From NCBI GenBank assembly GCA_003388555.1, contig QQVD01000005.1, positions 1-64,000 on the forward strand: DNA of 64,000 nucleotides, in the 5' to 3' direction. The notes beneath the pieces were generated by a model. The model saw only the letters and a list, made by a program, of their open reading frames with translations, had not been told where the DNA came from and made no database searches. This stretch comes from Acidobacteriota bacterium. Lineage in GTDB: Bacteria; Acidobacteriota; Thermoanaerobaculia; Multivoradales; Multivoraceae. Shown piece after piece: positions 19,639-23,178 of this stretch. Position numbers and translations under genes: made by a program. Each line of letters opens with the position of its first letter. Positions within the stretch are counted from its first letter, which is position 1.

Positions 19639-20118
19639 GTGACGGGTCACCGCGGCAGCGGTTCGACTCCGGTGCGCACCGCGATACTGACGACTGCCGT
19701 CTTCCTCGCCGCTTTCGGGGTCGAGGGCCTCGTCGTGCTCGCCCTCGGCGGCGGACAGGTGACAGCGCAGCGGCTCGTCGTCGCGGCCGCGGTGTATTCG
19801 CTCCTCGCCTTGCCCGTCCTGGTCTGCGCGCTGGCGACCTCTCTGACCCTCAGCGCAGCGGGCCGGAGCGCACCGCGACTCCCCTGGGCGGTCGCCGGTG
19901 GCGTCGTGGTCGCCCTGGTGCCGTGGATGGTCGGCATCCTGGTCTTCAGCGACGGCGACGATCCGAGCGATATCGTCGGCTATCTCCAGATCTGGTCGAG
20001 GGATCCCCTCGGGCTCGCCCTCGGTACCATCCCCTATGCGGCGTCCGGGATCGCCTTCGCGTGGTCGGTCCATGAACGCCGCCGCTTCGGAAACGCCATG
20101 GAGACGACGAAGGCATGA
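19639..20118 (+). CDS. Small four-helix membrane protein, unknown function
   Basis: The protein of about 159 residues has four hydrophobic segments: AILTTAVFLAAFGVEGLVVLAL, LVVAAAVYSLLALPVLVCALA, WAVAGGVVVALVPWMVGILVF, and GLALGTIPYAASGIAFAW. I do not recognise a family. GTG 19639 has GGAGG 8 nt upstream; GTG 19624 is equally possible because the upstream site is duplicated. Its stop overlaps the start of the next gene (ATGA), so the two are probably co-translated. Confidence 0.65.
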   Translation: MTGHRGSGSTPVRTAILTTAVFLAAFGVEGLVVLALGGGQVTAQRLVVAAAVYSLLALPVLVCALATSLTLSAAGRSAPRLPWAVAGGVVVALVPWMVGILVFSDGDDPSDIVGYLQIWSRDPLGLALGTIPYAASGIAFAWSVHERRRFGNAMETTKA

Positions 20119-20660
20119 AGGCCAGGCAGCGAGACAGCCTGCTCGAGACCCTGCGAGCCCGCTTCGTGGAGAACCCGCTGCGGCACGAGGGCATGGGATG
20201 GGAAGAAGTGCGAGAGCGCCTCGAAGGCGACACAGCCAGGCTGCAGGCCCTCGATGCGATGGAGCGCACCGGCGGCGAGCCGGACGTCGTCGCCCTCGAT
20301 ACGGACCGCGAGCGGATCTGCTTCGTCGACTGTTCTCGCGAGAGCCCTGCCGGGCGGCGCAGCCTCTGCTACGACCGCGCCGCGCTCGACGCCAGGAAGG
20401 CCAACAAGCCGCAGGGTAGTGCGGTCGAGATGGCGGCGGAGATCGGCATCGAGATGCTCGACGAGAGGCGCTACCGTCGCCTCCAGGAGCTCGGCGAGTT
20501 CGATCTCAAGACGTCGAGCTGGATCGCCACCCCGGAGGCGATTCGCGAGCTCGGCGGCGCCCTGTTCTGCGATCGTCGCTACGACTGCGTGTTCACCTAC
20601 CACAACGGAGCGCAGTCGTACTACGCGGCGAGGGGGTTCCGGGGGTTGCTCAGGGTGTGA
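20115..20660 (+). CDS. DUF4256-like conserved protein
   Basis: The 181-residue soluble protein resembles the DUF4256 family: LLETLRARFVENPLRHEGMGWEEV, CYDRAALDARKANKPQGSAVEMAAEIGIEML, DLKTSSWIATPEAIRELGGALF, and VFTYHNGAQSYYAARGFRGLL. The family has no established function. The ATG at 20115 overlaps the upstream membrane-protein stop by 4 bp (ATGA), so it belongs to the same two-gene operon. Confidence 0.85.
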   Translation: MKARQRDSLLETLRARFVENPLRHEGMGWEEVRERLEGDTARLQALDAMERTGGEPDVVALDTDRERICFVDCSRESPAGRRSLCYDRAALDARKANKPQGSAVEMAAEIGIEMLDERRYRRLQELGEFDLKTSSWIATPEAIRELGGALFCDRRYDCVFTYHNGAQSYYAARGFRGLLRV

Positions 20661-21156: not shown

Positions 21157-21426
21157 CGCGAACGAGACGGTGACGTCGTCTCGGCGGGTGCCTGGCGAGT
21201 GGCGCTGCCGCCGCGGGCTCCGTGGGGCATCGATGGGGCGCTCTCGGGGGTCGGTCCCGTCGCCGCCGCTATGGGCGCTCACCGACGATCCTGCGCTCAG
21301 ACCGTAGCGCGCGTGGCGCGGTTTCGCCCCGATGGCGTGGGTGTCTGACGAGGGTGGGCGCATCCTCCGATGCGATGCGCCGATCGTCGCCCGGTCCGAG
21401 GGACATTCGACACGGGAGGAATCGAC

Positions 21427-22507
21427 ATGCTCGAGCAGAGATTCGATCCACTAGGGGCTTGCTGAAAAAGCCCTGTGGGCCTCGTTTCGAGCGCCGTTGG
21501 CCTCAGATCCTGTGGCGCGCGAGCGAGAGCAATGCGGTGCCATTGTAGAGGGAGCGCAACGCAGGAGATGGGCCAACGCCGCCGAAACCCGCAGGGCGCG
21601 GGGGTTTGCGCCCCCTGGCCGCGTTGGGCCTCCTCCACGATGGCACCGCATCGAGCTCGTCGGCCGCGCCACGACCAGACGGCGCAGATCCCCGCGCGAG
21701 GCTCCGCAGGACTTCTTCAGCAAGCCCCTAGAGGTCGCGGCGTACGAGAACGCTGCCTGGTCGCGCGCCGCGTCCAGCTACGACAGGGGCTTCGGCAGGC
21801 TCGTGAAAGAGGCGCTGCCGGCGCTGCTGACCGGGGTCGCCGCAGGTCCGGGGGACAGGGTCCTCGACCTCGGGTCGGGTACCGGCTTGGCCGCCGCTGC
21901 TGCCGCCCGCCTCGGTGCTGAGGTGGTCGGCGTCGATTTCTCGCCAGTTATGGTCGCCGTGGCCGAGCAGAGCCATCAGGGGATCGACTTCCGGGTCGGC
22001 TCGGTCGAGGAGCTGCCCTTCGAGGAGCAGGTCTTCGACGTCGCGATCGCCAACTTCGCACTCCACCACTCGGGGGCACCCGAGTCGGTCCTGCGCGAGG
22101 TCCACCGAGTGCTCGCCCCCGGGGGTCGTCTCGGATTCACCGTCTGGGCCGAGCCCGAGGCTCTCGAAGCCTTCGGACTGTTCTTCGCGGCGGTCGAGAA
22201 GCATGCTGGTGCTGTCGAGCTGCCGCACGGTCCGCTGTTCGGAGTCAGCGATCCCGACGCCCTCGAGAGTCTCGTCGACGACGCCGGATTCGGCGCTGTC
22301 GCAGTGCGTCGTCTCTCCCTCAGTTGGCGTACCGGCTCGCTGGATCCGTATCTCGCGGCGTTTCGTGACTGGGCCGATCTCGGCCGTCTGCCGCTCGAGG
22401 GGCAGAAGCGCATCGAGGAAGCGGTGCGGCGCGGCGCAGAGGCCTACCGAACCGATCACGGCTTCGAAATGCCCAACCCGGCCGTGCTGGTGATCGGCGT
22501 GAACTAG
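21427..22507 (+). pseudogene. UbiE-like methyltransferase gene split by a MITE-like element
   Basis: The gene starts at ATG 21427 behind GGGAGGA and reads MLEQRFDPL for nine codons, then enters an inserted element and stops at 21463-21465. After the element the frame resumes exactly at GAG 21731 (EVAAYENAAWSRAASSYDRGF) and runs to TAG 22507. Removing the 277-bp insertion restores a 267-residue class I methyltransferase: VLDLGSGTGLAAAAAA, VGVDFSPVMV, FDVAIANFALHH, and VLAPGGRLGFTVWAE. An open frame from TTG 21497 passes through the element into the methyltransferase, so a protein with an element-encoded N-terminus remains possible. Target unknown. Confidence 0.85.
21454..21727. mobile_element. 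274-bp palindromic MITE-like element with CTA/CTAG target duplication
   Basis: The ends are GGGGCTTGCTGAA and its reverse complement TTCAGCAAGCCCC. The two halves stay complementary almost to the centre: ATGCGGTGCCA at 21532-21542 pairs with TGGCACCGCAT at 21641-21651, and AAACCC at 21585 with GGGTTT at 21602. CTA (or CTAG, which merges with the inverted repeat) is present on both flanks. No transposase is encoded, so it would be moved in trans. Not assigned to a named family. Confidence 0.85.
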
Positions 22508-22566: not shown

Positions 22567-23178
22567 ATGAAGCACGTACAGCTGAGATGGTCGCAGAGCT
22601 GGGAGCTGCTCGGCCTGGCGCCGCCCGACGGCGTGCTCGAGAGGCTGCTCGAGCGCCACGCCGAGGACCATCGCCACTACCACGATCTCGACCACGTGCT
22701 CGACTGCCTGGAGAAGGCAGTGGGCAGCCGAGCCCATCAGCGCGACCCGGCAGCGGTCGACCTGGCGCTTTGGTTCCACGACGCGATCTACGATCCGCGC
22801 CGCGGCGACAACGAGGAGCGCAGTGCCGAGCTGGCCGAGCGCGAGCTGGCGCCTCTGCTGCCCGCCGAGCTCGTCTCCCGCATCGCCGGTCTCATCCTCG
22901 ACACCAGGCACGACTCGGCCCCGTCGTCTGCCGACGGCGCCGTGGTGGTCGACATCGACCTCTCGATCCTCGGCGAGACCCCGCAGCGCTTCGCTGCCTA
23001 CGAGGAGGCGATCCGCGCCGAGTACGAGTGGGTGCCGGAACCGCTCTTCCGTCGCGAGAGGCGGCGCATCCTGCAGAGCTTCCTGGAGCGGGATGCGATC
23101 TACTCGACCGACAGCTTCCGCGAGCAGTACGAGGAGCGCGCCCGTGCCAACCTCGAGCGGGCCATCGCCCGGCTCTGA
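22567..23178 (+). CDS. Predicted HD-type metal-dependent phosphohydrolase
   Basis: The 203-residue protein resembles the COG4339 group of predicted HD phosphohydrolases. It begins SWELLGLAPPDGVLERLLERHAEDHRHYHDLDHVLDCL, then has LALWFHDAIYDPRRGDNEERSAEL, containing the HD pair, a helix with LILDTRHD, and DIDLSILGE as a further acidic site. The HYHDLDH, FHD and DIDLS clusters are the likely metal ligands. The substrate, probably a nucleotide, is unknown. The ATG at 22567 follows GGGGGAG with a spacer of about 10 nt. Confidence 0.82.
   Translation: MKHVQLRWSQSWELLGLAPPDGVLERLLERHAEDHRHYHDLDHVLDCLEKAVGSRAHQRDPAAVDLALWFHDAIYDPRRGDNEERSAELAERELAPLLPAELVSRIAGLILDTRHDSAPSSADGAVVVDIDLSILGETPQRFAAYEEAIRAEYEWVPEPLFRRERRRILQSFLERDAIYSTDSFREQYEERARANLERAIARL

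Follow-up and report, generated by a model that had tools for sequence, protein, structure and literature searches.

A candidate IS5-mobilised mini-element with a Y-shaped interior in an acidobacterial methyltransferase gene

The window analysed here, 64,000 nucleotides of contig QQVD01000005.1 (assembly GCA_003388555.1) from an Acidobacteriota bacterium, contains a methyltransferase gene that reads as disrupted by a short element that entered codon 9/10 (Table 1). A GGGAGG motif at 21414-21419 precedes the ATG start at 21427-21429, and after MLEQRFDPL the frame continues as GGG GCT TGC TGA. Taking out 277 bp, made up of the element (273 bp) and a single CTAG copy (4 bp), restores the frame as ...RFDPLEVAAYENAAW; the CTAG target was originally in frame as CTA-GAG. 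A sequence-only reading of this DNA had placed the interruption at codon 9-10 with a stop after 12 codons, and had proposed that a 277-bp deletion rejoins ...RFDPL-EVAAYENAAW... behind a ribosome site; direct reading confirms both. Homologues are unbroken across the insertion point, reading ESFDPEEVARFENETW and MSYDPEAVAAQEHQTW; those of genome G061 (53-54% identical) and the more distant ones of G003 (32-33%) are uninterrupted, with FDPEEVARFENETW and YDPEAVAAQEHQTW. The empty site expected in relatives is therefore present, and the inserted sequence is not carried by all orthologues. The window methyltransferase is the sole match in its own genome at E<=1e-20. Upstream of the insertion, a DUF4256 protein (276 bits) is encoded at 20115-20660, and 3' of the methyltransferase lies a 203-aa protein (22567-23178) for which neither Pfam nor NCBIfam gives a family at E<=0.001.

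Table 1. Positions in the window of the interrupted gene, the inserted element and its predicted fold
Feature	Position	Strand	Basis
GGGAGG ribosome-binding site, ATG and codons 1-9 (MLEQRFDPL) of the disrupted methyltransferase gene	21414..21453	+	Sequence, homologues
Target-site duplication CTAG, left copy	21451..21454	.	Sequence; CTAG at many family junctions
Left terminal inverted repeat GGGGCTTGCTGAA	21454..21466	+	Sequence; pairing onward to about 21484
Putative non-autonomous IS5-type element, 273 bp between the CTAG copies	21455..21727	+	Nine full-length genome copies; model R1 280.6 bits, this copy being part of the R1 training set
TGA terminating the methyltransferase frame after 12 codons	21463..21465	+	Sequence
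Hairpin 1 of the conserved Y	21491..21582	+	Covariation, 17 copies plus 29 held-out; lost as a unit in L092
Small hairpin between the arms	21588..21595	+	Helix 7 of the consensus, 2 pairs
Hairpin 2 of the conserved Y	21597..21696	+	Covariation; lost as a unit in L073
Right terminal inverted repeat, reverse complement of GGGGCTTGCTGAA	21716..21728	-	Sequence; pairing from about 21697
Target-site duplication CTAG, right copy	21728..21731	.	Sequence
Rest of the methyltransferase gene, from EVAAYENAAW... to the TAG at 22505-22507, with its methyltransferase domain intact	21731..22507	+	Pfam PF08241, 4.3e-26

The ends of the window copy are 13-bp perfect repeats followed by an imperfect extension. 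CTAG flanks both ends of this copy and of many others, and because CTAG is palindromic, the sequence alone does not distinguish a 2-bp TA from a 4-bp CTAG duplication. The element had been described as 274 bp with a duplicated CTA; the element itself stands, and its measures are better read as 273 bp with a 4-bp CTAG copy, in the style of IS5. The longest ORF wholly inside it is 90 aa, and none is transposase-like by eye. By its features the element is a MITE: it is short, has terminal inverted repeats and no transposase gene, is present in multiple copies with duplications, and shares its ends with an autonomous element.

Nine full-length copies with these ends are present in the genome, far beyond chance. 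The further copies that had been anticipated are thus found, and the element is neither single-copy nor without a related transposon. Seven of the nine measure 274-276 bp from GGGG to CCCC; the other two, of 412 and 417 bp, have extra internal DNA in common. This amounts to about 140 bp at the same places in both (L023, 1999-2415; L024, 2015-2426), so the 412-417-bp form is also spread. CTA and TAG are clear on both sides in five of the nine (one with an extra G included). Three more full-length copies combine other ends, of the GGAGCCCGTGGTGAAA type, with the same interior, which is about 75% identical. Locus L027 (G000:C49, 2046-2426) holds a 381-bp copy of this second end type in which part of the element is duplicated internally. 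The plasmid collection, searched by DNA, gave no match to the element. Because the copies nearest to the window copy are 97-98% identical to it and its duplication is intact, the insertion into the methyltransferase is probably recent. It accounts for the disrupted methyltransferase of this genome and points to recent mobility of these elements.

An autonomous element with nearly the same ends is found in genome G034, where an intact 1,340-bp insertion sequence lies at a CTAG with CTA/TAG flanks and encodes a 358-aa transposase with DUF772 and DDE_Tnp_1 domains. Its end equals the 13-bp end of the window copy except for an A in place of G at base 3. This transposase scores 254 bits against the NCBIfam IS5 model NF033581 (cut-off 140); the partner transposases tested reach 254.1 and 236.9 bits with that model, and 205 and 187.8 bits with the IS1182 model, under its cut-off of 270. 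G034 also holds several copies of a separate 160-bp MITE whose ends equal those of its IS5-family element, so that the two form a clean IS/MITE pair (loci L083, L084, L087 and L088). Other insertion sequences with such ends, at one or more end differences, occur in G054, G013 and a Terriglobia MAG. Derivation of the window element by internal deletion of the G034, G013 or Terriglobia insertion sequence is rejected, as nothing aligns beyond the ends and a few short matches of the kind expected by chance.

In G017, a genome of the same family as the window's, GGGGCTTGCTGAA occurs at 16 places, 14 of which are no more than about 75 bases from where a contig stops, as is typical of repeats that interrupt an assembly. 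The sequence continues from there in two ways, and one of these nearly equals the DNA that precedes the G013 transposase. These contig ends, where the transposase itself is unassembled, are the only such places at which the exact GGGG form was seen; it is in none of 26 transposase-adjacent ends inspected, several of which represent one insertion sequence or repeat a locus. Part of a protein related to the G034 transposase is encoded at 29 of 184 collected loci, and all 29 have such an end (at most two mismatches) within 600 bp, an association that is partly by construction, since most of these loci were fetched by the end pattern and several are duplicates. Locus L081, which was fetched by protein, has an end with two mismatches. 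The second end type also adjoins a DUF772 transposase fragment (L260, G059). A profile search of the window's own genome, a draft of 74 contigs from which a repeat could be missing, returned no DDE_Tnp_1 (PF01609) transposase, and this genome gave no match to the G036 transposase fragment. The sequence-only reading had looked to a transposase with matching ends; IS5-family elements of this kind occur in relatives, and none was found in the genome itself.

These observations favour mobilisation in trans, in which an IS5-family transposase would act on ends of type GG(G/A)GCTTGCTGAA and insert the element into CTAG targets, duplicating 4 bp; in this way one copy would have jumped into codon 9/10 of the SAM-dependent methyltransferase and disrupted the gene. 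The CTA...TAG junctions fit the TA duplication of an IS630/Tc1-mariner transposase just as well, CTAG is the target preference of IS630, and the genome has one IS630-type DDE_3 fragment (L037, G000:C5:109701-110012; a 227-aa frame, apparently a remnant). However, DDE_3 occurs in three of the ten genomes searched, once each, no matching end was found at the DDE_3 loci of other genomes (L065, L066), and it is IS5-type transposases that ends of this kind flank. IS630 is largely refuted as the partner, and mobilisation by it is exceedingly improbable. The insertion might instead have supplied a new N-terminus, as the sequence-only reading proposed, through a 336-aa fusion that starts at TTG 21497 and runs through the element. 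That frame is open and the methyltransferase domain downstream is intact, but no ribosome site is seen before 21497, and the number of open codons in that phase, measured leftward from the right end, varies among seven copies (92 in two, 88 in one, 59 in two, and 29 in two). The frame looks open by chance in GC-rich DNA; the proposed N-terminus is unsupported, and a functional fusion is very unlikely.

Taken alone, the window copy is 69% identical to its own reverse complement, and its MFE fold is one long hairpin (-173.5 kcal/mol, z -9.2, with 0 of 200 shuffles as good). In contrast, the consensus of 17 aligned copies from six genomes consists of a terminal stem and two separate arms. Within these 17 copies, 30 of 55 pairs in the Y interior have two-sided changes, all five measures lie above all 500 shuffles, and covariation is 0.378 compared with 0.143 when shuffled (controls that leave the relatedness of the copies in place) and 0.06-0.10 when partners are slid. 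The interior of the long palindrome reaches 0.112 compared with 0.110 when shuffled. A further 29 held-out copies, hand-chosen as near full-length R1 matches and partly from G002 and G036, which are also among the 17, were placed in a structure-free alignment. Their Y interior contains 109 two-sided cells, whereas shuffling gives 45 +/- 5 (maximum 61, 200 shuffles); their long-palindrome interior contains 65, with 63 when shuffled. Paired cells of the Y fall from 93.9% in the 17 copies to 71% in the held-out set, a looser fit outside the training set. In the two alignments of short copies inspected, L092 lacks exactly arm 1 and L073 lacks exactly arm 2. The "one long palindrome" of the sequence-only reading holds as the MFE fold of the window copy; as a conserved structure it is rejected, since pairing of the left half with the right half is without covariation in both sets. 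The comparative evidence supports a Y as the conserved shape, with the terminal inverted repeats as its stem and two independent hairpins as its arms. Rfam gave no family over the gathering threshold and only a chance sub-threshold match, MIR1437, at 28.4 bits against 168.

R1, the covariance model of the family, was searched against 71 genomes of the order at a match threshold of E<=1e-4 with stricter filters, its per-genome counts including both strands of the same place. It matches 27 of the 71 genomes, which represent 20 of the 28 genera. Most of the best full matches span 270-275 bp; shorter forms are about 160-200 bp, and a few are longer. Terminal repeats diverge among family members: 11 of 72 genomes have the first end pattern, and 23 of 71 have the second. 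In G059 alone the second end type occurs 77 times, often close to a contig end. Among named records, the first end type belongs mainly to Acidobacteriota, including Thermoanaerobaculia and Terriglobia, with some records labelled as other phyla. Across many genera the fold and typical length persist despite divergence of the terminal repeats; what lasts seems to be structure more than sequence. The window element is read, with a probability of roughly 0.92, as a MITE-like element mobilised in trans by an IS5-family transposase and as a member of a family that spans the order and retains a Y-shaped interior; this figure covers the identity of the mobile element and not the reason for its fold.

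Insertion sites appear to be associated with gene ends. A home-made rule calls a frame as a gene if it is open for at least 80 codons and has the highest GC3 of the three frames, at GC3 >=0.65. By this heuristic, the flanking frame ends at the junction TAG/TAA in 21 of 49 copies, a count that leaves out four short G034 MITEs. Counted by junction side, a stop lies at 22 of 72, whereas for background CTAG sites it does so at 27 of 226 (Fisher p 4.5e-4). One junction or both are without TAG/TAA in 20 of the 49 copies, which indicates that many duplications are eroded. The side of the element on which the flanking gene ends varies among copies, and the window copy is an exception to the pattern. 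Because the duplicated CTAG target contains a stop codon, the stop of the neighbouring gene stays in place, making this target a simple way for insertions to leave it intact. Scarcity of CTAG within coding DNA may explain part of the pattern.

MITEs are usually regarded as decaying insertion-sequence leftovers, whereas here a Y is retained. The fold may act in the mobility or replication of the element: the folded strand would draw the two element ends together, and template correction between the arms would contribute to the covariation. This is the preferred account, though tentative and possible rather than probable. A rival to it, which leaves the mobile-element identity untouched, is that the Y interior is a transcribed structured RNA, similar to a 3'-end protector or terminator, and that it is retained for rendering insertions at gene ends harmless or useful. 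The strong covariation in the Y and the gene stops at junctions suit such an RNA, as does hairpin 1, where the held-out copies have 57 G-U cells against 13 A-C cells. However, the terminal stem of the same copies has 33 G-U against 40 A-C cells; in hairpin 2 G-U leads by cells (66 against 35) but the two are equal by columns, at 14 each, and the pairs were chosen by RNA rules, a bias toward G-U. The consensus energy is lower on the plus strand in one alignment and on the minus strand in the other, no Rfam family was found, the gene-end side varies relative to the element, and the rarity of CTAG in coding DNA may account for part of the stop pattern. A transcribed RNA is possible rather than probable.

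Covariation could also be purely mutational. Quasipalindrome correction, or template switching between hairpin arms, homogenises the arms and would do so here without function. It would yield two-sided changes in each arm and could accompany the clean loss of whole arms; by itself it gives no account of the typical 270-275-bp length or of position-specific sequence conservation across genera, and it too is possible rather than probable. Selection on the Y, as a two-arm module on changing IS5-type ends, falls somewhat short of an even chance; the module might serve transposition in the form of folded DNA, or else work as an RNA sealing the 3' ends of genes, in which case sealing would follow insertion into CTAG stop codons. 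In this family, selection at the level of the fold, or mutation driven by the fold, can be put to the test for a bacterial mini-transposon.

Literature searches returned no description of the family or of an order-wide conserved Y among the matches listed; in the portion of PMC8841776 available, MITEs are named in a reference title only. IS5 of Escherichia coli enters Py-T-A-Pu targets, mostly CTAG as at the window element, and duplicates them on insertion; it differs in being autonomous, according to the accessible part of the source (PMC5493358). Correia elements and other bacterial MITEs are likewise small, multi-copy and bounded by inverted repeats, and form stable stem-loop transcripts; they occupy other hosts, and the accessible part of that source describes no order-wide conserved branched fold for them (PMC10969869). 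The closest described element is MITEPsy1 of Pseudomonas syringae, which is probably mobilised by ISPsy2 and was shown to transpose (PMC3189936, as far as its accessible text goes). Like the window element, it is non-autonomous ("IS5?"), has terminal repeats and can interrupt genes; it duplicates 4 nt (CTAG or YTAA), which is compatible with the CTAG junctions here. Unlike the window element, MITEPsy1 is 100 nt long, close copies of it are restricted to the P. syringae complex, although some homologues occur more widely, and that text describes no conserved two-arm fold (PMC3189936). The class of element is known, and a conserved Y is unusual for MITE-like elements; its conservation across a whole order is described in none of the matches listed.
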